A stretch of DNA of 64,000 nucleotides from Lachnospiraceae bacterium MA2020 (GTDB lineage Bacteria; Bacillota; Clostridia; Lachnospirales; Lachnospiraceae): NCBI GenBank assembly GCA_000746015.1, contig JQKK01000005.1, forward strand, positions 124,001 to 188,000. Reading direction: 5' to 3'. This document shows, in pieces, positions 12,206 through 42,763 of this stretch. The stretch's first letter is position 1. Each line of letters begins with the position of its first letter. The position numbers and the translations under genes were made by a program. Below the pieces are notes generated by a model. It saw nothing but the letters and a program-made list of their open reading frames with translations, made no database searches and was not told where the DNA came from.

Positions 12206-13083
12206 TGGAAAGTTTTCAGAAACTCAGAGAGCAGCTTCATGGCGAGATATTGATGCATATCGATCTTTCGAGAGAAGTTCCGGATGAAGAAATAGAAGAG
12301 CTCATAGATGATGAGATCACTAAAAAGAGTCAGGAAGCGTATATTCCGCTGGGACTAAGGCTTGAGCTGAGGCGTGCGATTTTTGATTCGATAAGAAAAA
12401 AAGGTGTAATACAGCAGCTTATCGACGACCCTTCTGTGACGGAGATAATGGTCAACGGCACTGAGGCGATTTTTGTAGAGCGTGCCGGGCAGCTCTTTCA
12501 GTGGGAGAATTGCTTTGAAACCCGCGAGGAGCTTGGAGATGTGATACAGCAGATAGCGGCACACTCAAACAGGGTAGTAAACGAGGCGTCTCCGATAGTC
12601 GATGCAAGACTTGAAAATGGCTCACGAGTAAATATTGTAATGGAGCCGGTAGCGCTTAATGGTCCGATAGTTACGATCAGACGATTTCCGGAAAATCCTA
12701 TCATGATGGAGGATCTGATAAAGTTTGGAGCAATAACTATAGAGGGCAGTGAATTTGTAAAAAAGCTCGTAAGGGCAGGATACAATATCTTCGTTTCCGG
12801 TGGTACCGGCAGCGGAAAAACAACATTTCTTAATGCGATGTCGCAATTTATCCCAAAAGATACACGAATCATTACAATAGAAGATTCGGCAGAGCTTCAG
12901 ATAAGGGGAATCCCAAATCTTGTAAAGCTTGAAACACGAAATGCAAACGTAGAAGGCTGTGAGCCTATCACGATACGAGACCTGATAAAATCGAGCCTGC
13001 GCATGAGACCGGATCGAATTATTGTTGGCGAGTGCCGTGACGGAGCTGCTTTTGACTTTCTGCAGGCAGCCAATACAGGACAT
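12205..13083 (+). pseudogene. tadA: TadA/CpaF pilus ATPase, N-terminal part, split by the mobile element
   Basis: Secretion ATPase that powers Tad pilus assembly. The first 293 codons are intact: the N-terminal domain, Walker A SGGTGSGKTT (about 196-205), the Asp-box region with IITIEDSAELQI, and Walker B with RPDRIIVGECRDGAAFDFL. At LQAANTGH the frame enters the mobile element and picks up about 20 foreign residues to a stop at 13146. The missing C-terminus (starting DGSMSTGHANS) is encoded at 42764-43078, in the same frame. As integrated, the protein lacks the His-box and C-terminal domain and is probably inactive. Confidence 0.93.
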
Positions 13084-14716
13084 CTTGGATTCCCTTCTTG
13101 CCTACACTTTCTTCATCGGAGAAATCATTCCTTTGTTGTTGCTTAAATGTTATTATTTGCCCAGATTTAAGGGTTATATCCACATCACCGTTTGGTGGTA
13201 AGTCTATTCGGTCAATATAATTAAGAATACGGTCACGATCCATGGTGCTAAAATTCTTAAGCTCTGAAATCGCTGTTTTGATTTCTGAAATCTTATCAGT
13301 CACATAGGAAAAACTTAATTTGTTGGATTCCTTGTCCTCAATGATGGCTGTAAGATTATCAATCTCATCAGAAAGAGTATTTAATTTTGCAACTGCTTCG
13401 TCTTTGACCTTATCTGAAAGGGCTCCATTCATTAGTACACCAAATAAACTCTCTTTTTTCTTTTCTTTGGCTGATCTTTGCTTTTTTAGATTGCTGACTT
13501 CATCACCATTATTTTGAGAAACTTCCACACACTCAATTAAAGTTTTTTCTACAGAAGATAAAACATTGCTTTGTTCTGTCACGACCTGTTTTAATGTTAT
13601 GCGTGTCATCTCTTCCAAATCAGCTTCATAAATGCGACTGATTTTATTTGGGCAGTCTCTATGATTTGAAATACGATAAACTGATATTGTTTTCTTTCTA
13701 TCCGAGAAGTCATGGCGGTATGGTTTGCCACAGACAGGGCAAAATATTTTGCTTGCAAAGAGATGCATCCCCTGAAAGTGTGCCTGAATAGTTTTTTTGT
13801 CAGGTTTTTCATAAACTGTAATTCTTGAATGATGTATTCTCTGTGCCAGTTCGAAAAGTTCTGTATCAACAATTTGTAAATTTGGACGTTCGCAAAGTAC
13901 CCACTGTTCTTTTGGTAACTCGATGCGTTTTGATTTTGTACGACCAGTTCCTAGCTTAGTGGTGCGCTTGTTAATATAAAACTTGCCTATATAACGCTCG
14001 TCTTTGATAATATTTGATACAGAGCGACTGCATATATTAATGCCTTCGTCATTTAATGCTCGTTCAATTGAAGCCGGAGTACCGTTACGATAAACATACT
14101 CTTCAAATATTCTGCGAACAATTTCAGCTTGCTCAAGGTTTATTGTGATACTCTTATCTTCACGGTGCCAGTCATAACCAAAAGAGCAATCTTTGGCAGA
14201 TAATTCCTTGCGTTCTATACGTAATTCTTGAGTTTTGCGTCCGTTAAGGCTCTGTTGTTTTACATACTGTGCATCTATAGCATATTTGATGCTATGAAGG
14301 AGTCCGGAGTTCATATCTTCAAAATCATGTACGTGTCTGTCCTCAAGAGTAAGGACAGTTGCGTTATGTTCTAAAAGCATACTGTTTAACATAAGAGAGT
14401 TAAGCTCATCACGGTTAAGACGTGATAATGCTTTGGTAAGAATAAGATCAAAACCATCATCAGATAGTCTCTGAAGCATTTCATTGTATTGAGGTCTTGT
14501 GAAGTCATTTTTGCCAGAGATACCATCATCAATATATGTAGCAATAAGCTGAACATTTGGATGTTCTGCTATATATTTTTCAGCCAGAGATACCTGATTG
14601 GCACAGGATTCCTTCTGACCTTCATTATCAGTTGATACTCTTGCATAAATCACGGCTCTAACAATGTCTGTACTGCCCGTGTTGAGTTTCTCTCTAATTT
14701 CTTCTGCAAGTGTCAT
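13019..14716 (-). CDS. Large serine recombinase (integrase of the element)
   Basis: 565 residues in this integrated form. Order: resolvase catalytic domain with nucleophile in YARVSTD (Ser28) and SRLNRD further on, the recombinase domain (about 180-290), a zinc-ribbon with CPVCGKPY and a later Cys, then a long coiled coil (about 390-500). It catalyses attP x attB integration and, with a directionality factor, excision. Its start overlaps the stop of the upstream gene (ATGA). Its 3' end crosses attL, so the last 17 residues come from antisense tadA. In the circle the frame would instead run 47 codons beyond the core to the polB start. Confidence 0.95.
   Translation of the reverse strand: MTLAEEIREKLNTGSTDIVRAVIYARVSTDNEGQKESCANQVSLAEKYIAEHPNVQLIATYIDDGISGKNDFTRPQYNEMLQRLSDDGFDLILTKALSRLNRDELNSLMLNSMLLEHNATVLTLEDRHVHDFEDMNSGLLHSIKYAIDAQYVKQQSLNGRKTQELRIERKELSAKDCSFGYDWHREDKSITINLEQAEIVRRIFEEYVYRNGTPASIERALNDEGINICSRSVSNIIKDERYIGKFYINKRTTKLGTGRTKSKRIELPKEQWVLCERPNLQIVDTELFELAQRIHHSRITVYEKPDKKTIQAHFQGMHLFASKIFCPVCGKPYRHDFSDRKKTISVYRISNHRDCPNKISRIYEADLEEMTRITLKQVVTEQSNVLSSVEKTLIECVEVSQNNGDEVSNLKKQRSAKEKKKESLFGVLMNGALSDKVKDEAVAKLNTLSDEIDNLTAIIEDKESNKLSFSYVTDKISEIKTAISELKNFSTMDRDRILNYIDRIDLPPNGDVDITLKSGQIITFKQQQRNDFSDEESVGKKGIQDVLYWLPAESQKQLRHGTRQQ
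13072..13083 (+). repeat. attL core of the tadA element
   Basis: AATACAGGACAT, identical to 42752-42763. The left flank is tadA coding sequence (codons A-A-N-T-G-H), the right flank is element DNA. The recombinase gene reads across it on the reverse strand. Confidence 0.9.
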
Positions 14717-15402
14717 TTATAATTATCCTTTCTGTATTTTAAAAATCCTTCTTGTAACGAATATATGTCTAAGCGGAGCTGTTCACGAATTTTGCAAAAA
14801 TTTGCAGTGCGCCAATGAACATCATTTAAGTTATGGACAACAAGTAAATCATACTTGTTACAATTCTGAATCAGTTCCATAAGCTGTTTCTGCTCACCAT
14901 CATTTTGATGAAGGCTCTCATCATAATACTGGTCAATGACAGTCCACTCTGTTTTCTTATTTATGAAAAGTTTAAAGATATCATTCTTTACAGCGATAAC
15001 CTCTTTCAATTCATTTTGAGTACCAAAATGGCAAGTGTAGGTGGCTACATGAAGAGGTTTATTAAAAGGTGCTTCATCCCAAATAAAGCAACCATTTTCA
15101 ATCGAATATATTTTTAATCCTTTGTCACGCAACATCAGCAGATCTGTCATGAATCTGCCGGTGTTCTTGGCAATGTGGTAAAAATCCTTTGTAATAAGGA
15201 CATCATATTTATCGCAACACTTAATGAAGCGGTCATATTCTGTTCGTTCAGACTTTTTAAGGCTCAGATCACAATAAACATCAACAACCTCAAAACCCAT
15301 GGAGAGTGCATATTCTTCTAATGCTTTTAATTGGTCTCTATAGATTTTGGGACGCTGTTTGCTTTCATTTGTAAAGTGATATATTGCTGACTTTAGTTTC
15401 AT
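14713..15402 (-). CDS. Degenerate tandem resolvase-like partner of the recombinase
   Basis: 229 residues that look like two copies of the resolvase fold without the catalytic site. Each half has a strand-helix pattern ending in a Y-D-[LV]-L-[IV] strand: CCDKYDVLITKDF in the first and NCNKYDLLVVHNL in the second, where active enzymes have G-x-D-x-[LIV]-[LIV]-x-x-x-x-S-R-L. The N-terminal Y-x-R-x-S motif is absent in both. Its stop overlaps the recombinase start as ATGA, so the two are coupled. It may be a structural or directionality partner of the integrase (inference); a decayed recombinase is less likely, as the frame is intact. Confidence 0.75.
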   Translation of the reverse strand: MKLKSAIYHFTNESKQRPKIYRDQLKALEEYALSMGFEVVDVYCDLSLKKSERTEYDRFIKCCDKYDVLITKDFYHIAKNTGRFMTDLLMLRDKGLKIYSIENGCFIWDEAPFNKPLHVATYTCHFGTQNELKEVIAVKNDIFKLFINKKTEWTVIDQYYDESLHQNDGEQKQLMELIQNCNKYDLLVVHNLNDVHWRTANFCKIREQLRLDIYSLQEGFLKYRKDNYK

Positions 15403-15490
15403 AACTTGTCTGTAACTCCTTTGTAATTTCTTTGACCGCCTTATACGGTGTTGGATTATTTATTCCGCATGAATCTTTAATGTCTAACAT
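15365..15490 (-). CDS. Possible small protein (41 aa) before the recombinase pair
   Basis: A short reverse-strand frame from ATG 15490 overlaps the start of the next gene by 38 bases. It contains GINNPTPYKAVKEITKE; a P-T-P-Y-x-A-V segment is something I associate with small proteins beside recombinases in Firmicutes elements, but I cannot verify that. The ribosome site is weak. It fits the close-packed order of this operon. Confidence 0.35.
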   Translation of the reverse strand: MLDIKDSCGINNPTPYKAVKEITKELQTSYETKVSNISLYK

Positions 15491-15623
15491 CTCTTGTTTG
15501 ATTTTGCGGTTTAATCTTTGTTTAATTCGATTTTTCGTCTTATTGCATCTTTAAATAAACTATTGTTTTTGGCAGTGACATCCGATAAGCCGGGGAACAC
15601 TGGGCTCAGTAGAACCATTATTG

Positions 15624-15764
15624 TTATGCCGCCTGTTTTTCTTTATCAGCGGTTATGATTTTTTGAGCTGCTTCATCATAAATTGATTTGTCGATAACGT
15701 TTGTTCGAAGTAAATCATTTAAGATTAAAAGTTCAAGTGAGATATTGGTTTTGGTCTTGTTCAT
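15624..15764 (-). CDS. Small conserved-type protein (46 aa)
   Basis: ATG 15764 overlaps the stop of the excisionase-like gene as ATGA, with AGGAGGTAGCGAT upstream, so translation is coupled. The product is a helical, charged peptide with ISLELLILNDLLRTNVIDKS and a lysine-rich tail. Function unknown; it belongs to the integration/excision operon by position. Confidence 0.65.
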   Translation of the reverse strand: MNKTKTNISLELLILNDLLRTNVIDKSIYDEAAQKIITADKEKQAA

Positions 15765-15967
15765 ATCGCTACCTCCTTTCCATTTACTTCACCATATAGG
15801 TAAGAGATGAGTGAATCCTTAGGGATTCTTATAAGTCTCCCAATCTTGATATGGGGAAGGTCATTATTTTTGATGTGTCTTCTGATTGTGGCTGGGGTTA
15901 CATTTAAAATTTCAGCTACTTCTGCGATTGTTAATACCGCTGGATAGTGATTAAGTAATTCATTCAT
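15761..15967 (-). CDS. Excisionase-type helix-turn-helix protein
   Basis: 68 residues with the MerR-like winged helix of excisionase (Xis) proteins: LTIAEVAEILNVTPATIRRH for the helix-turn-helix, then LPHIKIGRLIRIPKDSLISYL for the wing. It is a candidate recombination directionality factor for the serine integrase two to three genes downstream (inference). It is the first gene of the leftward operon, reads away from the divergent XRE repressor, and the intergenic region carries two identical operators. Confidence 0.88.
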   Translation of the reverse strand: MNELLNHYPAVLTIAEVAEILNVTPATIRRHIKNNDLPHIKIGRLIRIPKDSLISYLYGEVNGKEVAI

Positions 15968-16000
15968 TTAAAAAACTCCTTATAAAATGTTAATAACAAC

Positions 16001-16062
16001 AACAAATTTGTTACTATAACAACAATAACATATACGAAGTTAATGTCAACAACAAATTTGTT
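16001..16062. promoter_or_regulatory. Paired AACAAATTTGTT operators
   Basis: The perfect 12-bp palindrome AACAAATTTGTT occurs at 16001-16012 and 16051-16062, exactly 50 bases (about five helical turns) apart, between the divergent excisionase and XRE repressor genes. Further AACAAC/GTTGTT half sites lie around them. Likely binding sites of the XRE protein encoded at 16190. Confidence 0.75.
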
Positions 16063-16189
16063 ACTTGAGTGATTTTTAACAACATTTTTGTATCGTTTTA
16101 TATCTCTTATGTTGTTATTATGGTAAAATTTTTATTATAAAAAAATTTTTTACCTTATTGTTAATATGGAATTAAAAGGAGAGATTGTT

Positions 16190-16741
16190 ATGTATCGGTA
16201 TAATCCATTTGGACAATCGCCGGAAGATTTTGATATAGAGACAGCTGGTAGCCTCATAGGTAGAAGAATTCGAGCTATAAGACAGGAAGAAGGTATGTCA
16301 CAGGGAGAACTGGGAGAAAAGGTTGGTCTTATTGCAAATAGAATTCAACAATATGAAAATGGGGCTAGAAATCCTAAGTTTGATTTATGCAAACAGATAG
16401 CAGAGGCATTGGGTGTAGAAGTAAGTGCTTTACTTGATCCACAGGTTGCAAGTTATATTGGCGCAATGTTTGCGTTCTTTGAAATGGAAACGCTCTATGA
16501 TCTGCGATTAAAAGAAGTTGATGGTCAGATGTGTATTTGCTTTGGAGAAAGTCAGCATGATATCAACGTTAGCACTATGAATAAGAACCTTAAGAAGTGG
16601 TACGAACGTAGAAAAAAGATGGAGGCTGATATTTTAGAAGCATCATCTGAAGAAGAAAAGAAGCGGATAATCCATGAGTATGATATGTGGGAGTGGAATT
16701 TTCCACATTCGATGGATAAAGAACCATTATCAGAAACCTAA
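16190..16741 (+). CDS. XRE-family transcriptional repressor of the element
   Basis: 183 residues. An XRE helix-turn-helix spans about 22-80 (IGRRIRAIRQEEGMSQGELGEKVGL, recognition helix ANRIQQYENG), followed by a C-terminal domain without a recognisable peptidase site, so SOS-type self-cleavage is not supported. Start ATG 16190 is preceded by AAAGGAGA with 7-base spacing; an ATG at 16166 lies upstream of this site and is unlikely. It is divergent from the excision operon and faces the paired operators, the layout of a lysogeny-type repressor. Confidence 0.85.
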   Translation: MYRYNPFGQSPEDFDIETAGSLIGRRIRAIRQEEGMSQGELGEKVGLIANRIQQYENGARNPKFDLCKQIAEALGVEVSALLDPQVASYIGAMFAFFEMETLYDLRLKEVDGQMCICFGESQHDINVSTMNKNLKKWYERRKKMEADILEASSEEEKKRIIHEYDMWEWNFPHSMDKEPLSET

Positions 16742-16840
16742 AGAGCAGCAAAAGAAAGAGCTACTCACGCTCTAGAGGAGACATTGATGTAAGCAAGGAA
16801 GGACGAGGAAATATAAACAAAATGGGAAGGGGGGCTTTAT

Positions 16841-26711: not shown

Positions 26712-26730
26712 GTGGATTTTAATGTTACCT

Positions 26731-29219: not shown

Positions 29220-29228
29220 TGGTATAAT
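29220..29228 (+). promoter_or_regulatory. Extended -10 promoter
   Basis: TGGTATAAT (TG-N-TATAAT) 35 bases upstream of the GTG at 29263; no clear -35 box. It would drive the 29263-31106 gene group. Confidence 0.6.
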
Positions 29229-29262
29229 ACAGTACATAAATATTGATTTTAAGGAGAAATTT

Positions 29263-29491
29263 GTGAATAATCTTTCTTTATCTTTTTGACGCAAATATCA
29301 CAACTAAAACATATAGCGTTCCTGCTATTTTTGAGTATAAGCTTCCTGATGGTTATATGGTTGATATAGTTATCACGCTAGAAACATTTAAAGCGTATAT
29401 ATACCATAAAGATTATGGAACTAAAACACTTGTGTTTGGTATGTCAAAAGATGATATTGACTATGACAAGTGTGGAAAAATTGCAGAATAA
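29263..29491 (+). CDS. Small protein whose frame is shifted +1 at TTT-TGA-C
   Basis: AAGGAG is followed by GTG 29263, which opens VNNLSLSF and meets TGA at 29287. From 29288 the +1 frame is open without its own start codon for 67 codons and is clearly protein-like (ANITTKTYSVPAIFEYKLPD, later YGTKTLVFGMSKDD), ending at TAA 29489. The join UCU-UUU-UGA-C allows the P-site codon UUU to re-pair after a +1 slip, similar in form to the RF2 frameshift site. Either programmed frameshifting or a one-base mutation explains it. Family unknown. Confidence 0.5.
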
Positions 29492-29504
29492 TGGAGGCTA
29501 CAAA

Positions 29505-29930: not shown

Positions 29931-29942
29931 AGGAGTTAAGAA

Positions 29943-32450: not shown

Positions 32451-32554
32451 TAAGTGTGGGCCTAATATACTTGCCTGCAACACGAAAACTTCGAAACCGG
32501 TTTCCCTGTAACAGGGTTAAGTTACAATTACCAATACAGCAAATATTGGAAGAG

Positions 32555-32626
32555 TTCGGAATAGTGCAGTTGGTAGCACGTCGACCTCATAAGTCGAAGT
32601 CGCGGGTTCGAATCCTGCTTCTGAAT
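32555..32626 (+). tRNA. tRNA with CAT anticodon (Met-type)
   Basis: Complete cloverleaf: acceptor TTCGGAA with TTCTGAA (one G-T pair), TA at 8-9, D arm GTGC/GCAC with loop AGTTGGTA, anticodon arm TCGAC-CTCATAA-GTCGA with anticodon CAT, and T arm GCGGG-TTCGAAT-CCTGC. No CCA is encoded. The first pair is T-A, not G-C, and the sequence differs from usual chromosomal initiator tRNAs; elongator Met or lysidine-modified Ile cannot be told apart here. It lies inside the mobile element. Confidence 0.8.
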
Positions 32627-33036
32627 CCCCATTTGAACGGGGCATAAGAGTACGCCGTCTTTGAAAACGGCTCCAACAACCTGATTAACCGTTTTCTGTT
32701 TTGATTCAATTATTAATTATTACTGGTTAATTGTATTTTCTTGAATTATAAATTGGGAACTGACAACGTATTTTAGACATAGAAATATGTTGAAATCCAT
32801 GGTAAAGGTTAAGGCGTTAAATCGGTTGACCAGAAGTTATCCTCATGGCTGTGTTGTGGGCAATACAATAATTTCATTATGAAATATGCCTCTGATAGGC
32901 TAAATAGCTAAATAGCGAAGGACTTTGCAGAAATGCAAGGTCTTTTGTTGCTTTTCAACCATATGGTCAATGATTTTTTTTCTTGTCATGCCATAAAATT
33001 ATCTTAGTAAGAAATGCTTTGGGAGGTTTGACAGAT
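32627..33036. other. Gene-free interval downstream of the tRNA
   Basis: Contains a small inverted repeat GCCGT/ACGGC just after the tRNA (about 32653-32670) and a terminator-like hairpin at 32919-32946. No gene is supported until the ribosome site GGGAGG before 33037. Confidence 0.5.
32919..32946 (+). terminator. Intrinsic terminator-like hairpin
   Basis: Stem GACTTTGCA/TGCAAGGTC with a GAAA tetraloop, followed by TTTTGTTG. Lies 75 bases upstream of the next gene, without a gene directly before it; it may end the tRNA transcript. Confidence 0.7.
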
Positions 33037-34245
33037 ATGGGCAATATTAATAGCTGGAAAGAAGATTTTGGCGAGTCGAAATACAGGCTAGATGAGCCGA
33101 GCTACAATAGGATGCTGGAACTTATAAGTCTGACAAATAAGATTGCAAGAACTGGAAAAAGCAGCATGAAATCCATATGGATTCATGTTCCCAGCGACGA
33201 CTATGAGGAAAGCGCTTGGATAAATATTGTTTTCCGCGGAGATTATTATGCCGAAAACGATATTTGGTACAACGTTCAGATAGATGGTGCTGACGTGTTT
33301 AATTATGACAACAAGCGTATTGAAGAAGAAATAGTAGATGCCACGGAAATGCTTGATTGGCTTATTGATACTGTGAAAATGGTTTTGTCTCTTGTTGAAA
33401 AAGGGGAGTATGAAGCGTATACCTCCGAGGTTCCATATTATAAGAGGAATGGAGTAATAAGCAGAAAAGATTACTATGCAATTGTTCCAGAGGCGAGAGA
33501 AAAGTATGCTAGCTTCTTAGAAAAAAGTGAAATTGAAGAATTGCTTAATAGTAAAGGAACTACCGATTTTTATGAAGAGAAGATGACGGCTAGAAGGTTC
33601 TATGAAGCGTGTGCTGTTGTATATAAAGCTCTTGGAATAGAGAAAAAGGAAAAATCGAGAATTCATGGATGGGAGGATGACGAAGAGGAAAGAGTCAGAT
33701 ATGGCGGATTGACTCCAAAAGAATGGTACTATGCTGTTGCTGATGGCAGAGATGACGGGCTTTGCAGAATTCCGCTTGATGATGAAGAGTTTTTTGCGGG
33801 GTGGATAAGGCATAAGCAACCATATTTTTCTTATGAATTATATGGTGGCCATCCTTGGGATATCATTTATAAGTATTCTTTTAAGCTTAGACTGTTTGTT
33901 GATCCAGACTGGAATTCAGATAAGTGCAAACTTGTAATTATTGGCGATTCTGAGAAAATTTGTACAGAAATACTAAGATCGTTTCTTGCACTAATGAGAG
34001 AAGGCTATGCTGTTGAACTACGAGGATATGAAATTCTGACCGATAGATTATTAGAAAAGGACTATCTGTCAGTAGTAGAAGAAGCAGATCCTTCACATCG
34101 TGGAAGCACAATAGCCGGACATTTTGCCCGTGATGAAATATCTCTTTGTAAAATTAAAGATAAGGAGCTTCTTGATAAAATTATACAGGCAACCGAATGG
34201 GAAAAATTGGATGAAGTTAAGCTTATTGATGTTATTGAGCGATAA
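33037..34245 (+). CDS. Unknown cargo protein (402 aa)
   Basis: Starts at ATG 33037 after GGGAGG; the frame is open from 32983. The product is acidic and soluble, rich in aromatic residues and D/E, without recognised motifs. Noticeable patches: SMKSIWIHVPSDDYEESAWI in the N-terminal part, an internal GGLTPKEWYYAVADGRDDG, and YELYGGHPWDIIYKYSFKLR. The next gene starts 23 bases downstream after GAAAGGGGG, so the two form an operon ended by a terminator. Candidate accessory (defence or immunity) function, without direct evidence. Confidence 0.65.
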   Translation: MGNINSWKEDFGESKYRLDEPSYNRMLELISLTNKIARTGKSSMKSIWIHVPSDDYEESAWINIVFRGDYYAENDIWYNVQIDGADVFNYDNKRIEEEIVDATEMLDWLIDTVKMVLSLVEKGEYEAYTSEVPYYKRNGVISRKDYYAIVPEAREKYASFLEKSEIEELLNSKGTTDFYEEKMTARRFYEACAVVYKALGIEKKEKSRIHGWEDDEEERVRYGGLTPKEWYYAVADGRDDGLCRIPLDDEEFFAGWIRHKQPYFSYELYGGHPWDIIYKYSFKLRLFVDPDWNSDKCKLVIIGDSEKICTEILRSFLALMREGYAVELRGYEILTDRLLEKDYLSVVEEADPSHRGSTIAGHFARDEISLCKIKDKELLDKIIQATEWEKLDEVKLIDVIER

Positions 34246-34268
34246 ACAAATAGGAAAGGGGGATACTA

Positions 34269-34850
34269 ATGGATTGGGAAGAAATAGAAAAACAGAGGCT
34301 TATCGGAAAACAGCTAATGATTGTGGATTTGATCCATATAGAGAATGATAAGGCACATAAAACAGGTTTTTCGTTTGTTACGACTGAAAATTTACAAAAA
34401 TGGTCTGGGATGGAGGAAAGCGAAGTCAAAAAGCTTGTTGACACCTGCGAATACATGGATGATTTTAAATTGTCATGTGAAGCAGCTGGTGATTTTGAAC
34501 GTACTCAGAATAAAACAACTGGTAGTAATGCTTATATGTTCTACCTTAGCACATATAGTAGATTAGGAAGTACGGCAATTATCGCGTTAAATAAAGAAGT
34601 TTTGGATGATTATTGTAATCATGCTGCAAAAATGAATTATGAACAATATAAAGAGACATATCCTGAATATCCTATAGACGAAGAGATGGGAAAAGCTGAA
34701 ATGCTAAAAAAAGCTTTAGAACATTACATTAGATGGTTTGTTAAGCGCTGCACTAGCGCCCTGGAGGCAGGATATGATTGGGATGTTGTGATCAGAATGG
34801 CCAGAACAGATATATCACAAGAAAGACTTAAGGTACTGGAGCATATATAG
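34269..34850 (+). CDS. Unknown cargo protein (193 aa)
   Basis: Second gene of a two-gene unit with the 402-residue protein. GAAAGGGGG precedes the ATG. Predicted mainly helical with a winged-helix-like first part (FVTTENLQKWSGMEESEVKKL) and a charged C-terminal helical region (YDWDVVIRMARTDISQERLK). No family is recognised. A terminator follows 45 bases after the stop. Confidence 0.65.
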   Translation: MDWEEIEKQRLIGKQLMIVDLIHIENDKAHKTGFSFVTTENLQKWSGMEESEVKKLVDTCEYMDDFKLSCEAAGDFERTQNKTTGSNAYMFYLSTYSRLGSTAIIALNKEVLDDYCNHAAKMNYEQYKETYPEYPIDEEMGKAEMLKKALEHYIRWFVKRCTSALEAGYDWDVVIRMARTDISQERLKVLEHI

Positions 34851-34895
34851 AGGATAATTCGTTATCTGTATAGGTTTTCTACATGTAAATTATAG

Positions 34896-34931
34896 GACGT
34901 TTGTTAATTTTATTTAACAAACGTCTGTTTA
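34896..34931 (+). terminator. Intrinsic terminator of the 33037-34850 operon
   Basis: 12-bp stem (GACGTTTGTTAA with TTAACAAACGTC, 34896-34907 and 34914-34925), 6-base loop, followed by TGTTTATAT. Confidence 0.85.
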
Positions 34932-35050
34932 TATATTGAGGGTTGATTAATTTAAAAAAAGTGGTAAAATATGAGCAAATCAAATTATATTCCATATTAA
35001 ACAAATAGAAAATTTATAAAAATATATAATTTAATATAACAGGTGTTGCG

Positions 35051-35887
35051 ATGGCTAATAAGGATCAGATTAGTAATAAGGAGTTTGCTGATATTGTTAG
35101 AGCTGCGCGAGGCAATAGAAGTCTAAGAGAGTATGCTAAAGATTCTTGTATTAGCTATATGACCATATATAAGGCTGAGCGGGGCGATTATTTACCGAGC
35201 TCCAAGACAATTAAGAAAATGTCTACGGGTTCAGCCAATCCACAGAATGGTGTTACATACGAAGATATGATGGTTGCTGCCGGATATCAAGATAAAGAGA
35301 CGGTATCTGAAACGGCTAGTGTATTGGCTCAGCAGATGATAGAAGAGGCATATGAAAATGGTAAGAATGGAGGAAATATTGTTGAAGGTTTATCAAGGAC
35401 GTACTCTTCTCCAGTTACCATGCACAGAAGACCGGTATATGCCGAGTATTATCGTAAAGTAACGGGAACTATTTTCACTACAATGTTTCAAAAAAATATG
35501 TATTTCACCAGCAAAAGAAACTATGAGGGTGAAGTAAGAAACGGAAATCATCCAGACATAACGTTAAATGTAGCTTATGGGAGAATTAACGAATGGTGGT
35601 TCGAGATTAAGTATTTTCATGAGTATAATAGTATTTCCATGAACACGAACATGAAAATACTATTAGGAGACATGCTTTTTTACAAAACAAATGAGAATAT
35701 AAAGCTTTCAATAGTCGTAAATATTGAAGAAGCATATAAATATTTGATCAGAAAGGCAACAGGTATGTCTTATAGAGGAGAGTTTTCTGTAATATTAATA
35801 GACACAGAAAAACAAAAAGTAGTTGCAGAGCAGTATTTATCAAACTACTACAAGAATGATCATAGTGCTGAGTTTTTCTTGAAATGA
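35051..35887 (+). CDS. HTH protein with a PD-(D/E)xK-like domain
   Basis: 278 residues. Residues 8-50 form an XRE-like helix-turn-helix (FADIVRAARGNRSLREYAKDS, then ISYMTIYKAERGDYLPS). The C-terminal half has HPDITLNVAYGRINEWWFEIKYF (about 168-190), that is P-D followed by E-x-K on the next strand, the pattern of a PD-(D/E)xK nuclease core. The nuclease assignment is inference from this single motif. It is a monocistronic gene in the cargo region of the mobile element; only a weak ribosome site (ACAGGTG) is seen. A DNA-targeted nuclease or a degenerate regulator are both possible. Confidence 0.6.
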   Translation: MANKDQISNKEFADIVRAARGNRSLREYAKDSCISYMTIYKAERGDYLPSSKTIKKMSTGSANPQNGVTYEDMMVAAGYQDKETVSETASVLAQQMIEEAYENGKNGGNIVEGLSRTYSSPVTMHRRPVYAEYYRKVTGTIFTTMFQKNMYFTSKRNYEGEVRNGNHPDITLNVAYGRINEWWFEIKYFHEYNSISMNTNMKILLGDMLFYKTNENIKLSIVVNIEEAYKYLIRKATGMSYRGEFSVILIDTEKQKVVAEQYLSNYYKNDHSAEFFLK

Positions 35888-36194
35888 ATATGAGAAAAGC
35901 CTTTTAAAAGGGTTGATGCCCTATGAATGATAGGATTATGGGAAAATAACAAAAGAGACGTTCGCGAAAACGCCTCTCTTGAAATAAAGTCAGATGCTGG
36001 TAACATCTGATGGTATGAAGTATTTTTGAACCCTGGGCGAGTTCACTTCATATCTAAACATTACCATTATGATATACGTTTGGCAAGATATTTGTCATTT
36101 AATTCGTAGTTCATTATATAATTGGTGATTCACTTTATTTCAAGAATTTTCCCTTTTTGACAACTGAATATGGAATTTATTAGGAGGGAAAACT
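35888..36194. other. Intergenic interval with weak hairpins
   Basis: Holds a 9-bp imperfect hairpin (about 35955-35982, AAGAGACG with CCTCTCTT) that may terminate the upstream gene, and a short inverted ATCAGATG/CATCTGAT-type pair around 35990-36013. Ends with AGGAGGG before the next gene. No gene seen. Confidence 0.5.
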
Positions 36195-37256
36195 ATGCCT
36201 ATTAGAGTCATAAATTGTCAGGCTACGTGCGCCAATATCAAGAAGCTTACAGAGGGAAGAAGGCTTACTCCCAAGGATATTAAGGAACTGCTAAATCTGA
36301 ATTCAGTACAGAGCATTTATAAGTGGTTTGACACTGCAAAAGGGAAGAGAAACAGTCTTCCTTCGGTAGATAATGTAATAATACTTGCCAATATTTTGGG
36401 GGTATCTTTAGATATGATTTATGCTACTAATGAAATGAACTTTGGAGGTTTTATGGGAAGGAAGCTTACAGATCTGCTTGGGATAAAATGCGTACCTGCA
36501 ATTAGTACCGGAAATCTTTATGAAGATAATCTTGCGAACGCCAGACTGTATGTGAAGCTATTGGACGAATATGAGAGAAGGGGATTATATCCGGTACTTA
36601 TTAACAGAGAGATGGATAATGAATGGTTTAGACTCTGCATGGGACAAACTAAGGTCAATGATAACAAAGAAAAATATCAGAAAGATGTAGAATGGACTAT
36701 TGAGCAGGCTGAATTTAGCTGCTTTGAGGTTTGGCTTGGAAGATTTTTATATGATTACCGCCTTGATTGCTTTAAGGATAAGAAAGAGGTAGAAGAATAC
36801 TTGGAAAAGCTGGTTCCGCCAGTATCAGAAGAATATGAAAGCATCTTTGCTAATGCTTTTGATAAAGGAAAATACGGTGTATTTAACATTGATGAAATGA
36901 ACTACAGCTATGCGCCAGAGTTTTTCCATTTTGAAGAACTTGAATTTGTTTTACTCCCGGTAAAGAATCCATGGGAAATTTTGGGATGGTTTCCATTTGG
37001 AAGATTTAACGCATGTCCAAAACCTTGTTATCACACTGCTCTGGCAAAGGAGTTTTATCAGAAGTTTGGTGCAAAAATAATGTATGTAGGAAAAAACAAT
37101 ATGACATATTATTTGGAAAGACCTTTAGTGACAAAATCTGACATAGAGTATGCATCTAAGATACTAATGATTGCAGACGGAGATCTTTATACAGATTACC
37201 AAAGTACTGCAGAGAGCATAGTGAGCGCCCATACCTGGCAATTATGGTGGGATTGA
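36195..37256 (+). CDS. HTH-DUF4253 fusion protein
   Basis: 353 residues. The N-terminal 75 residues are an XRE-like helix-turn-helix (RRLTPKDIKELLNLNSVQSI, then NVIILANILGVSLDMIY). The rest resembles DUF4253: PVLINREMDNEW, KNPWEILGWFPFGRFNACP, the Y-x-x-x-GAKIMYV strand and the characteristic end TWQLWWD. DUF4253 proteins occur among immunity proteins of polymorphic toxin systems; the attached DNA-binding domain is unusual in my experience. AGGAGGG precedes the ATG. The next gene follows after 39 bases. Confidence 0.75.
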   Translation: MPIRVINCQATCANIKKLTEGRRLTPKDIKELLNLNSVQSIYKWFDTAKGKRNSLPSVDNVIILANILGVSLDMIYATNEMNFGGFMGRKLTDLLGIKCVPAISTGNLYEDNLANARLYVKLLDEYERRGLYPVLINREMDNEWFRLCMGQTKVNDNKEKYQKDVEWTIEQAEFSCFEVWLGRFLYDYRLDCFKDKKEVEEYLEKLVPPVSEEYESIFANAFDKGKYGVFNIDEMNYSYAPEFFHFEELEFVLLPVKNPWEILGWFPFGRFNACPKPCYHTALAKEFYQKFGAKIMYVGKNNMTYYLERPLVTKSDIEYASKILMIADGDLYTDYQSTAESIVSAHTWQLWWD

Positions 37257-37295
37257 GCAGTGTAGGATAAGAGTAGATTTCAGAAAGGAAAGAGT

Positions 37296-37769
37296 ATGAG
37301 TGAGAGTAAATCTAAGGAAGAATTTGAAAAAGCAGTTAATGATATGATAGAGCGAGCCAGATGGCAGGGCGAAGTGAGTGGTAAAGTAGAAGGTGCTTTA
37401 AATGTGCTATTTGCACTCGATCTTGATAAGGAAAAGCGGATAGAGCTTTTGCAGGATGCTGTTGGATTAAGCCATATAACCGCCTCAGAATTTATAGCAC
37501 CAAGACAGATTGAAGAAAATATTTATAAAAGCAAAATACTAACTGATGACGAAAAGAATTCTTTATCAGATCTTTTGAATAATAAGGCTATGGATGATGA
37601 AAATGTATTAGATCATCCGGTAGAAATGCTGAAATTTCTCATCTCCATGTCAGATGATATAATGATAGAAAAATGTATTCCCCAGGTGGAAAAGTGGGTA
37701 AAATGCGGAGAAGATGTATCTTTGCACAGGGTTAAGGAATGGTTGATTGAAAAGTATCAATTGCTTTGA
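37296..37769 (+). CDS. Unknown helical protein (157 aa)
   Basis: AGAAAGGAAAG precedes the ATG. The whole product is predicted alpha-helical and acidic, with EEFEKAVNDMIERARWQGEV near the start and a possible helix-turn-helix LLQDAVGLSHITASEF (about 49-65). Its place 39 bases after the HTH-DUF4253 gene suggests co-transcription. No family recognised; the palindrome pair lies directly downstream. Confidence 0.55.
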   Translation: MSESKSKEEFEKAVNDMIERARWQGEVSGKVEGALNVLFALDLDKEKRIELLQDAVGLSHITASEFIAPRQIEENIYKSKILTDDEKNSLSDLLNNKAMDDENVLDHPVEMLKFLISMSDDIMIEKCIPQVEKWVKCGEDVSLHRVKEWLIEKYQLL

Positions 37770-37817
37770 CGGCCTTAGATTTCTGGATTATTACAAAAAG
37801 GGCTCTACTTTTTTGTT

Positions 37818-37880
37818 AGCGGTTCACTTGAGTGAACCGCTCGTTAGATATTTAACAATAAGTTCACCGAAGTGAACTTA
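37818..37880. promoter_or_regulatory. Paired GTTCAC-N4-GTGAAC palindromes, copy 2
   Basis: A perfect 24-base palindrome centred on GGTTCACTTGAGTGAACC (37818-37841) and AAGTTCACCGAAGTGAACTT (37860-37879), separated by a spacer with ATATTTAACAATA. Same half sites, spacer type and orientation as 28094-28151. The two pairs bracket the 28.2-37.8 kb cargo block. Confidence 0.8.
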
Positions 37881-38004
37881 TAAAAAAATTTGCATAATAA
37901 AAAACACCCCAGAATTAACTGAGAAGCCTTTGGTTAAATCATTCTAGAGAGTTTACAAGTTATAAAAATTCCATAATTATCGCCCTTTCATCTCAAAAAG
38001 GTAT

Positions 38005-38026
38005 AAAAAACACCTCATAGGAGATG
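38005..38026 (-). terminator. Terminator of the 53-aa gene
   Basis: Reverse strand: CATCTC-CTAT-GAGGTG stem-loop (one U-G pair) followed by TTTTTT, 12 bases after the stop at 38038. Confidence 0.7.
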
Positions 38027-38037
38027 CTTTTAATCAG

Positions 38038-38199
38038 TTATTTATTTGGAAACTCTATTATGTTATCGTCTTCATTATCATATATATATCCTTTTCCACC
38101 TGCCTTAAGATACTCCTGCAGGGTCATTCCCTGTTTTCTTGCTTTCGCTGCAAGTCTGTTTATCTGCTCCGCATATGCTTTGAAATGATCCTCTACCAT
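38038..38199 (-). CDS. Small protein (53 aa)
   Basis: ATG 38199 has GGGAGG 6 bases upstream, and a T-rich terminator follows the stop. The peptide FKAYAEQINRLAAKARKQGM, then LQEYLKAGGKGYIYDNEDDN, then IIEFPNK looks like a helical DNA- or protein-binding small protein with an acidic end. No family recognised, but signals at both ends make the gene credible. Confidence 0.7.
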   Translation of the reverse strand: MVEDHFKAYAEQINRLAAKARKQGMTLQEYLKAGGKGYIYDNEDDNIIEFPNK

Positions 38200-38289
38200 A
38201 GTCTACCTCCCAATTCCATTACCTTCAACTTGATTAGTACACTTATCATATCATGGATTAATGTACAAAATTAAGCACAAAATTAAGGG

Positions 38290-38319
38290 TTGACTTCTTG
38301 TATACACTTGTTGTAATAT
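38290..38319 (+). promoter_or_regulatory. Promoter with GTATACACTTGTTGTA element
   Basis: TTGACT (38290-38295) and TAATAT (38314-38319) are 18 bases apart; the spacer contains the 16-mer GTATACACTTGTTGTA (38300-38315), also present at 10641-10656 within another TTGAC-start promoter-like sequence. It precedes the gene at 38438 by about 120 bases. Confidence 0.6.
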
Positions 38320-38437
38320 TCTCTCTGTTGTCGCGACTGATTGACGACAGGAAAAAATTCTTTATGCCGTATCGGCAGGTTTTCCACACTTTAGACTTTT
38401 GAAAATATAGAATTAAGTTATAAGGAGTTTTATTATC

Positions 38438-38776
38438 ATGTTTACATCTATCGACAAGAAGTTACTGTCAATTTCATATTTCAGTTTTATTTCTGCAGAT
38501 GAAAATCACTGTGAAGTTACATCCAAAAGGTTTAAGAACCAATGGAAGATCACACGTCATGTGGATGGCTTTTCTGCAAGCATCCTGCAGGACGAACGAT
38601 ATAGAAGGCTATTCGTTTTTGCAAGTCTTCTAGATGTCGTCCTTGCAATAGTTGACTTTGAGGAGCCAAAGAAGGATCCAAAAGACCGCTCTAGAAGAAG
38701 GGAAGGACTGTTTTTCCGTCTTATCGATCAATTTGGAAGATATTATCCTGCTGGACCACTCGGAGAGTCATATTAA
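38438..38776 (+). CDS. Unknown protein (112 aa)
   Basis: ATAAGGAG is 9 bases before the ATG, and a promoter-like sequence lies upstream. The product begins with a strand-rich part (SISYFSFISADENHCEVTSK) and has a hydrophobic stretch LFVFASLLDVVLAIVDF, followed by a strongly basic segment KKDPKDRSRRREG. No family is recognised. It is convergent with the XRE/membrane pair at 38795-39440. Confidence 0.6.
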   Translation: MFTSIDKKLLSISYFSFISADENHCEVTSKRFKNQWKITRHVDGFSASILQDERYRRLFVFASLLDVVLAIVDFEEPKKDPKDRSRRREGLFFRLIDQFGRYYPAGPLGESY

Positions 38777-38794
38777 TTATATTTCCGGTAGGAC

Positions 38795-39040
38795 TTATTC
38801 CTCCTCGTCCTCGTCATCATCATCGTCGTCATCCTCATCGGGCTCAAAGAAAAAAATATCCTCAACCTTTTTATCAAAAACCTTTGCAATGTCCATTGCA
38901 AGTTTCAGGGACGGGTTGTATTTTCCATTTTCAAGGTTTACTATTGTTTCCCTTCTTACATCAACAAGCGATGCAAGTTCTGCCTGGCTCATCCCATTAT
39001 CCTTTCGGAATTCATGAATTCTGGTCCTGAGTTTACTCAT
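38795..39040 (-). CDS. XRE regulator with polyacidic tail
   Basis: About 81 residues from ATG 39040; the frame opens at 39061. A compact XRE helix-turn-helix fills most of the protein ([20 protein letters not shown], then [20 protein letters not shown]), as in the YozG/small XRE group, and it ends in a run of about 15 Asp/Glu residues encoded by a trinucleotide repeat. Its start overlaps the end of the upstream membrane-protein gene. The pair is likely autoregulated through the repeats at 39456-39535. Confidence 0.88.
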
Positions 39041-39440
39041 CAGTATCACCAGACCTTTCATACTTCAAAAAATACAGTCCCGTGTAAAAATTCATCACAC
39101 CCATCAGGATGTAAACCCATATGAGCCCGTCTGAAATGATATCCTTTCCTAAAAAATGCTTGACTATAGCCACTAAACTGAAGCCAGTTACTATTCCGTA
39201 TAATGAATCATATGCAGATGCCTTTGCTTTCATTCTGTGATACTCGGACATTTCATCATCGTCTTCAAAACCCATTATTGTACCTACTATTATCGCGGCA
39301 ATTGTAATAACCCCAAAAACAATGGACATAATAGCAAAAGGAACAGTATTCTTCATTTTAGTGATACCCATTCCTATAAATCCTATACCGGTAATTACAT
39401 CGGTAAGCAAATATTTTACATATAAAGGTTTTTTCTTCAT
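39033..39440 (-). CDS. Membrane protein paired with an XRE regulator
   Basis: About 135 residues from ATG 39440 with AGGAGG 7 bases upstream. Four hydrophobic helices (about 12-28, 33-55, 80-95, 105-125) and an acidic loop [21 protein letters not shown] between helices 2 and 3. Membrane protein plus small XRE regulator with overlapping genes is a recurrent Firmicutes pair; another such pair is at 55295-56007. The role of these pairs is unknown to me. Confidence 0.75.
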
Positions 39441-39455
39441 CACTATACCTCCTTG

Positions 39456-39535
39456 TGTGATATATTTCTCACTTGTGTGATAAATATATCACTAAGAATA
39501 TAGACTGTCAACAAAAATGTGATATATTTCTCACT
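39456..39535 (-). promoter_or_regulatory. Direct repeats TGTGATATATTTCTCACT (operators)
   Basis: TGTGATATATTTCTCACT occurs identically at 39456-39473 and 39518-39535, with a related GTGTGATAAATATATCAC at 39475-39492. All have GTGA...TCAC symmetry and overlap the start region of the XRE/membrane operon, as expected for XRE autoregulation. Confidence 0.8.
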
Positions 39536-39624
39536 AAAATTCTATAACCTCCTTTGAACCTTGACTCAAACATTCCTGCAGGATTCCGATTTGAATATTC
39601 ACACTATCATAGCGTGCAAATGCC

Positions 39625-42612
39625 TTAAATATTGGCGTTTAGAATCTTTTGAAGTGTTTCTTCAACCAGCTCACGCGGGAGCCTATTTTTTTGTCTTTTG
39701 GGACGAGAGCAGTTCTTCCAGTCATCTAATGTGATTCGAGAAATGCCCCAACTATTTACAGTTTCAACAACTTCAGATTGCTTAAGACCGTCTAACGCAG
39801 GTATTTGATATTCGCGTAAAAGATAGCCCATAAGGATTGATAGAAGGATTTTTCGGTCAAGATCCTTTCCAATGTATCCTTTGGTTTTTACAGTAGATTT
39901 GACCTTTACTCGTTCTAAATCAGCAGTAGTTTTTACACAATCCTCATTTTGCATTGTGTTACGGTAATTGAGAAATTCTTCAGCATCGTTAAAAGGTCTA
40001 GTATCGAATTCAGCAATTATGGTATCTACAGAGTATTGCCCATCAGCACTGGTGTATTGAACTGGGGTATCAGTAGAGGTTTCAACAATAGGACAGCGTT
40101 TATAATCGAAGTTCATTGATAACTGACGAACGCTTTCTGTAACATGAAAGTCATGCTTTCTTTCAACAATTTCTGAAAACTCTGTCCATACTTTGGTGGA
40201 GCATTTTAAACGCCCTTCACGAGCTAATACAGCGATAATATAGGCATCTCTATCGGCACGACTGTCTTTGATTTCTCCGGTAGTGTAAGAGTTGTGTGCA
40301 AGTACACCCTTATCATTTACAGCAACATTTCCACGAGTTGTAATATTGAGGAAAGTGTCATTAAAATGTTTTGGCTCCCATACTTGATTAGCGTCACAAT
40401 TCTCATTTGTTTGATTTAAAATGTAACGACCATTCTGAAAGATAGGAGCAAAACCGTAAGCATCTAAACCACGTACAACATCAGTTGGAGCATCTGTTAT
40501 GAAACCATCAGTCGTGACGGAATATACGTGATAGCCCATGTCATGAAGCTGATTAATACAAGCAATTAACATACATCTGACCAATGCAGTGGTGTATGTC
40601 GCGTGGTATGGACTTGTTACCGTAGAAGGCTCAGCATCTACACGTCCCATCGTCTTGGCGTTATAACGTGTTTTGGGGCTAACATTCTGTGCTGTTTTTC
40701 CGTAACAGCTATTAACCATTGTTTTAAGACTCTTTTCCACGAGAGGATTGTCTTTATACATCTTTTTGGCTAACATACGGTCTTGTACAAGATTTGTAAC
40801 TGCATACGCAAGGCACTGAGACGGTTTGCCATCCTTTTCAAGCATTTGACAGGTAAATCCACGAAAGATTTTGATTTTTGCTCCCAGCTTTAAGGCAAGG
40901 AACATATCAGGTCCCGACATATAAACGTTTCTACCGTGACGAGGATAAATCTTCATACCACCTTTAACCGGAACTGGAATGTTCGGACAGTAGACATCAT
41001 CAGGAAAATCAAAATCACCAACAGCGACTGCTGGAATAAGCGGATTCATACATAAATCTTGTAGGGTAAGATAATCATGAGGTCGAAAGTCTCTTACATG
41101 AGCATTCCAGTCGATGTCAATAATGTTTGCCATAGCGGTAGGATAAGCATTCTGAAGGTCAAAATCGGTTGTGTATTCGGTTATCCAACCGATGTAGAAT
41201 GAAGCATTAAAACCGCCTGTGTATGCCTCTTCAAAGTATTCTGATACAAGCTTTGCATCAGGATTATCTCGAATAGGTACATAACGAGTAGCCTTTAAGA
41301 ACTTCATACATTCATCCTTTGATGGGATAACACCTTCGTTCAACTTTTCTAACCCCCTATAAATTCTGTCGTAGTCTTCTTTTTTACTTACACCAAAGTA
41401 GTTTTTGATGCTCCCGTACATCGAACAGGCAGCTGCGCTTGATAGTGTCATAGGTACGGCATGATTACATTGAAATAACTCTGCACAAAAGGAAACAACA
41501 ATGTCGGCATCATTCATGGCGTATTTGTAATACTCAATTGGATTACTGATAGCAAAAGCAGCCATATGTTCAATGACACTGTCTGGAAGCTCTATCTTAG
41601 GTCGATGTATTACACTACCTAAAGCTTTGAGTGATTTGTTTTCAGCAGGTGTTAAGCCCAGTGTATCTCGTACACATAGGTTCACAAGCCAATAATAATT
41701 TCGGTTATTATCGTTAGTGGCGGTAAAGTGTACATATTCAGTAGTCATCCAGCCACCTTGGATTTCACCAAGTTTTCTTAAAAGGTCGATGTCGTATTTG
41801 GAACGTCTGAAGACAGAAATATCTGCTTTACCTGTATGACAGATTATTGTTATTGGAACTACACTGTCTGACATCTTTCCGTAATCGATTACTTTAAATT
41901 GATTATGGTCTTTCCATTGCTTCTCTTTGTAAATAAGCTTTTCTTTACGTATAAGAGGAAAGTCTTTGAAGTAACATTTTTTCAGATCATCCAAAATATC
42001 AGCAAGACAATATTTGAGTGGGATAAGACCTCCATCAGCGGTTACTTCCTGAAAACGAGGGTCAACAAGGAAGAAGTATCTTATAAGCGTTTCTCCTACA
42101 GCTATTGTCATTTGTAAAGAAAGAACTCGTCGGTTTTGGCCAGAACCATCATGGTAATCTTGGAATTCAGTATCAAAACCAATATTTAAGCTCATGCTGT
42201 TAGATTGAATAACCTTAAATGAAGAAATTACATCTGCAATACTTCCAGCCTTTTGAATATCTAGTGGTGCAAGGAAAGGCTTTTTGTAAGTTCTGGTGTC
42301 GGTGTCATTTAACTGTATTGCATTGCATAAGGGTGAAATGACACCACTAAGGTTAGCCGTTGATTTTACTGGGTTTGGAGTGTTTGTCAATTGACGCAAG
42401 TTTGAATCTTGCGTCAGGTTGGGTGACACCACTTCTTTTAGCAAAGTGTATTCTTCACGAACTTTTAAATACTGACATCCGTGTTGCTGAAGTGCTTGAA
42501 CGATGTTTGAATGGTCGTCTTGAGTCCAAACAACATCTATAAAGCTATTGTGCTGTATGAGAACTGGAGCTGTATTGTGTTCTGCTTTTAATGCTAAATT
42601 TCCATCAATCAT
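39625..42612 (-). CDS. Family B DNA polymerase of the element (pipolin-type candidate)
   Basis: 995 residues. Exonuclease: Exo I NIGFDTEF (about 152) and Exo III YKYAMNDADI. Polymerase: motif A TDFDLQNAYPTAM, motif B KSLKTMVNSCYGK (K-x3-NSxYG), motif C SVTTDGFI, where the first acidic residue of the usual D-T-D is replaced by threonine but the essential second Asp is kept. It would replicate the excised element. GGAGGGG precedes the ATG. In the chromosome its upstream DNA is host tadA; in the circle it is directly coupled to the recombinase gene. Protein-primed or primer-independent synthesis is inference. Confidence 0.9.
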   Translation of the reverse strand: MIDGNLALKAEHNTAPVLIQHNSFIDVVWTQDDHSNIVQALQQHGCQYLKVREEYTLLKEVVSPNLTQDSNLRQLTNTPNPVKSTANLSGVISPLCNAIQLNDTDTRTYKKPFLAPLDIQKAGSIADVISSFKVIQSNSMSLNIGFDTEFQDYHDGSGQNRRVLSLQMTIAVGETLIRYFFLVDPRFQEVTADGGLIPLKYCLADILDDLKKCYFKDFPLIRKEKLIYKEKQWKDHNQFKVIDYGKMSDSVVPITIICHTGKADISVFRRSKYDIDLLRKLGEIQGGWMTTEYVHFTATNDNNRNYYWLVNLCVRDTLGLTPAENKSLKALGSVIHRPKIELPDSVIEHMAAFAISNPIEYYKYAMNDADIVVSFCAELFQCNHAVPMTLSSAAACSMYGSIKNYFGVSKKEDYDRIYRGLEKLNEGVIPSKDECMKFLKATRYVPIRDNPDAKLVSEYFEEAYTGGFNASFYIGWITEYTTDFDLQNAYPTAMANIIDIDWNAHVRDFRPHDYLTLQDLCMNPLIPAVAVGDFDFPDDVYCPNIPVPVKGGMKIYPRHGRNVYMSGPDMFLALKLGAKIKIFRGFTCQMLEKDGKPSQCLAYAVTNLVQDRMLAKKMYKDNPLVEKSLKTMVNSCYGKTAQNVSPKTRYNAKTMGRVDAEPSTVTSPYHATYTTALVRCMLIACINQLHDMGYHVYSVTTDGFITDAPTDVVRGLDAYGFAPIFQNGRYILNQTNENCDANQVWEPKHFNDTFLNITTRGNVAVNDKGVLAHNSYTTGEIKDSRADRDAYIIAVLAREGRLKCSTKVWTEFSEIVERKHDFHVTESVRQLSMNFDYKRCPIVETSTDTPVQYTSADGQYSVDTIIAEFDTRPFNDAEEFLNYRNTMQNEDCVKTTADLERVKVKSTVKTKGYIGKDLDRKILLSILMGYLLREYQIPALDGLKQSEVVETVNSWGISRITLDDWKNCSRPKRQKNRLPRELVEETLQKILNANI

Positions 42613-42751
42613 ATCTGCCCCTCCTTCTCAGTTCGGAGATAGCAGTTGACTATTACCTCTACTGTTTGGTTGGGATTTTTCCGAGAATGAATTGATTTAG
42701 GATAGGTGAAAGACGTGAGAAACACCTTGTTGTGGGTGTTGTCAAGATGCG

Positions 42752-42763
42752 AATACAGGACAT
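42752..42763 (+). repeat. attR core of the tadA element
   Basis: AATACAGGACAT, identical to 13072-13083. Right flank is tadA (codons D-G-S-M-S-T-G-H), left flank is element DNA. With the attL side, the excised circle would have CAAGATG and CATCTTG arms 11 bases apart around the core. Confidence 0.9.

Follow-up and report, generated by a model that had tools for sequence, protein, structure and literature searches.

What becomes of a recombinase gene that runs out of the end of its own mobile element? The question is raised by the window, a stretch of 64,000 nucleotides (nt) from Lachnospiraceae bacterium MA2020 (contig JQKK01000005.1, positions 124,001 to 188,000), in which an element spanning 13083–42763 is inserted in a cpaF/tadA-type ATPase gene. 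The element encodes a large serine recombinase (LSR), in which Resolvase (PF00239), Recombinase (PF07508) and zinc-ribbon (PF13408, Zn_ribbon_recom) domains all score over the cut-off. In the chromosome, its gene exits the element leftward into antisense cpaF and meets a stop at 13019. Probably, this is an integrative element of Lachnospiraceae that has its attachment (att) site within the LSR gene it carries, toward the 3′ end, and whose recombinase and replication genes form an operon switched by the attachment junction. It and its relatives belong to a family of mobile elements of gut bacteria.

When the two ends are joined in silico, as they would be in an excised circle, the LSR frame that starts at 14716 on the minus strand passes the core and continues as SHLDNTHNKVFLTSFTYPKSIHSRKNPNQTVEVIVNCYLRTEKEGQI for 47 codons past the residues VLY, giving a protein of 595 amino acids (aa) compared with 565 in the integrated form. 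Its stop codon TGA (42611-42609) overlaps the ATG (42612-42610) of polB, a gene for a family B DNA polymerase (PolB), as ATGA, with AAGGAGGGG immediately upstream. While the element is integrated, the window's tail frame has just 55 open codons, and it is joined to the LSR start only in the circle. A previous sequence-only reading of this DNA had predicted the open frame and the overlap, and the in-silico join bears out both, coordinates included; it had also counted three other ATGA junctions in the same operon, of which two were found, between xis and a 46-aa open reading frame (ORF) at 15764-15761 and between a partner gene and the LSR gene at 14716-14713. Its further claim, that chance is an unlikely cause, goes too far for a single frame: the frame remained open in 5.7% of mononucleotide shuffles of the window's right end (1.9-10% over 12 elements), and one of the two other frames also runs 33 codons before a stop (8-42 codons in the 12 elements), so that one open frame is weak evidence.

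Across relatives, on the other hand, the same claim holds. Relatives were sought in 48 genomes of the genus at 1e-60, which gave no further LSR copy, and in 397 genomes of the taxonomic family at 1e-90, which gave three copies; a scan of genome contigs with an alignment of these three gave 17 loci (L020–L036), three of which (L025, L028 and L029) correspond to G051, G349 and G386 and were each counted once. In 15 of the 17 (L020-L032, L035 and L036), as in the window, the common target is the NTGH codon of cpaF, entered in a single orientation, and there the LSR runs out into the cpaF 5′ half. Right ends were located via the cpaF 3′ half for 11 of these 15, which together with the window make up the 12 elements compared here (35–81% LSR identity). 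For L022, L024, L029 and L031 no right end was found, nor any tail in their genomes, and these loci were left out of the 12.

All 12 elements keep the frame open across the attP formed in silico, for 37–51 codons including three core codons, and attP thus falls inside the integrase coding sequence at every one of the 12 junctions; relatives with a broken frame, named by the sequence-only reading as the case against it, were not encountered. The tails align with each other (SHLDNTYNKVFLTSFTYPKS...NPNQTVEVTVNCYLRTD), and their identities to the window's tail, set beside those of the LSR body (tail/body, %), are 91/81 for L020, 64/72 for L021, 62/66 for L023, 81/61 for L025, 55/60 for L026, 58/53 for L027, 72/48 for L030 and 41/46 for L032. 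In several pairs (L020, L025 and L030), the tail is about as conserved as the body. The ratio of non-synonymous to synonymous substitution rates (dN/dS) over the tail is 0.04–0.54 in 28 pairs from eight of the 12 elements, the four that diverge most being omitted; many pairs come close to saturation at synonymous sites, which makes their values rough. The first nine tail codons, which may be attP arm DNA, were left out. Between the window and L020, for example, there are 13 synonymous and three non-synonymous differences over 39 codons. A chance open frame, or an artefact of one genome's assembly, could draw on the shuffles and the competing 33-codon frame of the window, and its probability is nevertheless negligible: with 12 of 12 elements open, alignable tails and purifying selection on them, the relatives reject it, and the family-wide open frame is not a product of chance. 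Because the tail is joined to the LSR start only in the circle and selection acts at the protein level, the circular form is suggested to be translated. The selection on the tail is the strongest evidence of the analysis. A search with the tail peptide among the 397 family genomes returned only the window and G051 and missed the divergent tail of G349, so it is an undercount; against plasmids the tail gave no match.

The other half of the answer concerns the integrated gene. At all 16 attL sites read (one in the window and 15 in relatives, the right end being known for all but four of the latter), the LSR ends 3–20 residues across the crossover, and in the window the integrated gene retains the Resolvase, Recombinase and zinc-ribbon domains. 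The integrated LSR is thereby shown to lack the conserved C-terminal tail and to run into antisense cpaF, its gene being whole in the predicted circle. The sequence-only reading, which dealt with the operon, is incomplete: the conservation of the tail shows selection on the LSR protein itself, which ends differently when integrated. At the junctions, the window carries the 12-bp repeat AATACAGGACAT at both ends, and identity stops there; across the 12 elements, attL and attR share only TG, so that the true core is shorter than 12 bp, and A/G differences beside the TG in L026 and L021 fit exchange at this dinucleotide. With the element removed in silico, cpaF is uninterrupted at the reconstructed empty site (NTGH|DGSMSTGH). 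Since all 12 elements sit in cpaF in one orientation, the genes past attP are antisense to the host gene.

What, then, does the recombinase frame lead into? Relative to the LSR stop, the next start is at -4 in the window, +2 in L020, +11 in L023, +9 in L025, +12 in L026, -1 (or a later ATG) in L027, +19 in L028, -7 in L030 and +12 nt in L036, hence within -7 to +19 nt in nine of the 12. It is farther away in L032 (+107) and L035 (+293), and in L021 the nearest frames of at least 40 aa begin at +54, with none gene-like before +622. In most of the 12 reconstructed circles, the LSR is thus shown to stop at the start of the next gene. The ATGA overlap stands for the window, and its exact form is not conserved in relatives. 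A replication or partition family follows the LSR in eight of the 12. In five of them it is PolB (the window, L020, L023, L026 and L030), the relatives' polymerases being 92, 80, 35 and 35% identical to the window's, respectively. L027 has an HTH_36 protein with DUF6017 in this place, L032 has ParA and ParB and then RepA_N with DUF6017, and L036 has a 357-aa gene of no assigned family and then a Toprim gene. The 297-aa next protein of L025 has no Pfam match and is replication-like by eye only. The proposal that the excision operon crosses attP into polB therefore holds as to the single gene string that exists only in the circle, and is too narrow as to polB, found in just five of the 12; a string with a replication or partition module would form only in the circle, PolB being one of several such modules.

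The polymerase of the window appears nearest to plasmid polymerases: in the 20 listed of 45 plasmid matches, identities are 23.7-27.7%, and pSE-12228-03 of S. epidermidis, which also carries recombinase and relaxase genes, is among the matches. It also matches PHROG 11768 (DNA polymerase) at 2.4e-12. PF03175 (DNA_pol_B_2) is matched weakly, in three of the five PolB members. No match was obtained against phage records at 1e-5 or against viral contigs, nor, with a PolB profile, against solved structures at 0.1. In compact relatives of about 12.5-14.6 kb (L129, L130, L131 and G051), mobilisation genes continue on the LSR strand, where Pfam recognises MobC/NikA and a relaxase in L129, as well as a relaxase in L010; restriction-modification genes lie on the opposite strand in L129, L130 and L131. 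The window element is larger than these.

Upstream of the LSR gene, a resolvase-like partner was found in all 18 loci searched by similarity (L020-L036 and L050, only its end in L021). Where the LSR has YARVS, of which R and S are the catalytic residues, the partner has YHFT or YHFS in 16 of the 17 loci that show its start and YLKT in L030; because of this replacement, the partner is probably not a recombinase. The best promoter-like site of its region, TTGACA-16-TATTGT at 16049-16022 on the minus strand (10/12 consensus matches), lies upstream of xis and opposite a divergent helix-turn-helix (HTH) gene, and is flanked by the only two copies in the window of the operator-like AACAAATTTGTT (16001-16012 and 16051-16062). 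Over 12900-16900, promoter-like sites number 10, against 14.6 in shuffles, so that it is position and score that mark out this xis promoter candidate. On the minus strand of 42500-43300, no promoter-like site was detected, and one terminator-like site lies in host DNA (42888-42874). The 12 right ends together contain four promoter-like sites, one each in L023, L026, L028 and L035, against 2.8 expected, which is no enrichment.

How might such an arrangement work? The promoter upstream of xis would be controlled by the divergent HTH protein, and its derepression would yield Xis, the 46-aa protein, the partner and the short LSR, by which the element would be excised. Excision would supply the LSR gene with its tail and bring the replication genes into line behind it, and in the circle the same promoter would read xis, partner, recombinase, attP and polB in succession. 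The circle would then make the full-length LSR, able to reintegrate, and read-through together with stop–start coupling would supply the replication proteins that copy it. Reintegration would cut the operon again; the replication genes would then be separated from that promoter and lie antisense to cpaF. The exchange of tails may also bias the LSR, the short form toward excision and the long form toward integration. Silence in the integrated state, the start on excision, the use of the promoter, the replication of the circle and a difference in activity between the long and short forms are what we infer. That the tailed LSR of the circle favours integration, that the short chromosomal LSR with Xis and the partner favours excision, and that the same junction connects and disconnects the replication operon, is offered as a tentative proposal, plausible but somewhat short of even chances.

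Several observations weigh against the junction-switched operon. No circle, attP junction or transcript was seen in the searches. The attP pattern was absent from the genome itself, from 17 related genomes, from viral contigs and from 392 genomes of the order, the pattern fitting window-like attP only, so that a divergent attP would be missed; and the LSR, searched for in circular forms, had no match at 1e-40 among plasmids and phages. Tail identity falls below body identity (tail/body, %) in L028 (28/49), L036 (34/50) and L035 (24/35), and the roughness of the dN/dS values belongs here as well. L021, L025, L028 and L035 show no match to a replication family beside the LSR, a remnant in G046 (L004, L016) keeps the N-terminal stretch of PolB without the tail, promoter-like sites around xis are fewer than in shuffles, and four right ends hold a promoter-like site of their own. 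Some hits to the attP pattern were rejected: the only one from the order-wide set of 392, which has a single mismatch, falls within an unrelated gene, and those in G500 and G039 are their right ends.

One alternative is that only the recombinase matters, with attP inside the gene since the tail is coded beside the site, and with replication genes that use their own promoters and need no switch. Purifying selection does act on the tail protein, the next gene varies and begins at +107 or farther in three of the 12, and a promoter-like site is present in a third of the right ends; yet this account is rather unlikely, as the next start clusters at -7 to +19 nt in the other nine, unrelated replication modules occupy the same place, and the promoter-like sites are not above expectation, with none on the right strand in the window. 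Another explanation, rated just as low, is that of a bacterial suicidal integrase: the short LSR would be inactive, integration would be one-way, and excision would need full-length LSR from another copy. The archaeal enzymes are explained in this way (PMC8371274, in the part drawn on here), the tail is conserved and hence probably needed, and no attP junction was found in assemblies. Against it, the Resolvase, Recombinase and zinc-ribbon domains all stay in the integrated gene, and if the short form could not excise, there would be no point in the xis gene, the partner and the promoter-like site that lie upstream of it.

The junction-switched operon proposed here has partial precedents, and the comparisons that follow concern the accessible portions of the papers cited. 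Circularisation-dependent operons are already known from the Tn916 family, in which excision joins the ends and so places the replication and transfer genes of one end under a promoter situated at the other (PMC11658703). Gene order and strand in the present elements are compatible with such transcription across the joined ends. In Tn916 it is transcription that passes the junction, with terminators and an antiterminator (canT) involved, and no junction-completed reading frame is described in that portion of the account (PMC11658703); here, in contrast, it is the reading frame of a large serine recombinase that spans attP and terminates on the start codon of the gene beyond. Proteins truncated at att sites are also known. 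In archaeal suicidal integrases (SSV1, pTN3 and pT26-2), the att site lies inside the integrase gene and integration breaks it; these are tyrosine recombinases whose catalytic part is split off, and self-disrupting recombinases have been called exclusively archaeal (PMC8371274). The present enzyme differs as a bacterial serine recombinase that loses its tail only and keeps the catalytic domain. In mycobacteriophage BPs, whose immunity is integration-dependent, attP lies within a gene whose product is 33 residues shorter in the integrated state and behaves differently (PMC4557955), a C-terminal truncation of similar kind concerns ORF13 of phage phiRSS0 (PMC3816273), and ORF12 is split in XacF1 (PMC4076744). 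In these three a repressor or regulator is affected, whereas here it is the recombinase, with replication genes, too, lying past the junction.

In pipolins, the encoded primer-independent polymerase, piPolB, appears to be a related family B enzyme. Restriction-modification components have been reported in these elements, and integrated pipolins have tyrosine recombinases (PMC7385651), unlike the large serine recombinase targeting cpaF here; S. epidermidis is named among plasmid pipolins with relaxases and resolvases (PMC9710591). In SCC and similar elements, LSRs lie beside polymerase and helicase genes and the elements are thought to replicate after excision; their recombinase gene comes after the replication operon inside the element, and no link across attP is described in the portion of the source used (PMC10061031). 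In ICEKp1, joined ends likewise change which promoter drives an element gene; that switch concerns int transcription, and a frame crossing attP is not mentioned in the accessible text (PMC13023037). As far as its accessible text goes, a large-scale LSR discovery paper has nothing on sites inside the recombinase gene (PMC10083194), and searches of the open-access literature, which leaves subscription papers outside coverage, turned up no serine recombinase gene with attP within it. What would be new, as far as sequences can tell, is that a serine recombinase of a bacterium has its own attP within its gene and that this gene adjoins, in the circle, replication modules of several kinds.

Some loci were set apart from the 12 elements. 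L033 and L034 (31% identical) use the same cpaF site with the LSR at the opposite element end, next to the cpaF 3′ half; the joined L033 frame is open for about 49 codons past the core with a tail that has no clear alignment, and the other end of L034 was not found. G039 (L003/L015) has a right end only, with a 90% identical tail, in a gene other than cpaF that we take to be bioA-like; the PolB body is missing and the polymerase is reduced to its first 60 residues. In G046, a 67-aa ORF that matches residues 1-62 of PolB with 48% identity lies upstream of a relaxase-like ORF, a hint that the N-terminal stretch of PolB may be a module of its own. L048 and L049, considered as right ends, were rejected as uninterrupted cpaF-like genes. 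Viral contigs gave no match to the single LSR sequence and 79 loci with the LSR alignment, 78 of them at most 32% identical; the one close relative, L050 (61%), likewise runs into cpaF. Just past its recombinase gene, a second, unrelated-looking large recombinase gene (2841-4505) lies in the same cpaF fragment, which suggests two elements stacked at one site.

Besides its type I restriction-modification genes, the window element carries RuvC-like and FtsK-like genes in a block on the plus strand. The type I specificity gene (20816-22312) contains two 197-nt repeats that are 81% alike and is followed by an invertase-like gene (22331-22930); just one weak 25-nt inverted repeat pair was found. 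A tRNA-Met gene lies within the element at 32554-32629. No relaxase, which integrative and mobilisable elements carry beside a site-specific recombinase, was recognised in a Pfam scan of 13 element ORFs, and no drug-resistance genes were noticed among the ORFs read, no dedicated search having been made.

Table 1. Features of the element and its host gene, in window coordinates.
Feature	Position	Strand	Remark
cpaF/tadA 5′ half, host gene	12205..13083	+	In-frame join with 42764-43078
attL	13072..13083		12-bp identity with attR; crossover inside TG (CA) of NTGH codon CAT
LSR, integrated form, 565 aa	13019..14716	-	Last 20 residues read, at + past the crossover, from host DNA
Resolvase-like partner, conserved	14713..15402	-	ATGA overlap with LSR; YHFT replaces YARVS
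46-aa ORF	15624..15764	-	ATGA overlap with xis; similar ORF in G051
xis, excisionase-type HTH_17 protein	15761..15967	-	Domain match
Putative control region	15968..16165		Consensus matches only
Divergent HTH regulator	16166..16741	+	Assigned by look; counterpart in L129 is HTH_3
Type I restriction-modification cargo	16841..22312	+	R from a Pfam match; M and S by appearance
Family B DNA polymerase, 995 aa	39625..42612	-	First gene after LSR in the circle
Right end, circle-only C-terminal LSR tail	42609..42763	-	Stop TGA 42611-42609
attR	42752..42763		12-bp identity with attL
cpaF/tadA 3′ half, host gene	42764..43078	+	In-frame join with the 5′ half

For the host, integration means that a Tad-type gene is interrupted, and excision would restore cpaF/tadA. 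LSRs predicted from integrated copies, as all 16 here are, bear a host-derived end instead of their real tail. How replication is kept off in the chromosome and on in the circle has been little studied for excised integrative elements; according to the accessible part of a 2017 review, no study had ever addressed how excised mobilisable elements replicate (PMC5704250). If the proposal is true, the attachment junction would itself be the replication switch. With a C-terminus that depends on whether its gene is integrated, such a serine recombinase would also be a natural experiment on directionality, an open problem for genome-engineering enzymes. On the more tentative proposal of two LSR forms with opposite preferences, recombination direction and replication state of these elements would both be decided at a single DNA junction, with no added regulator.

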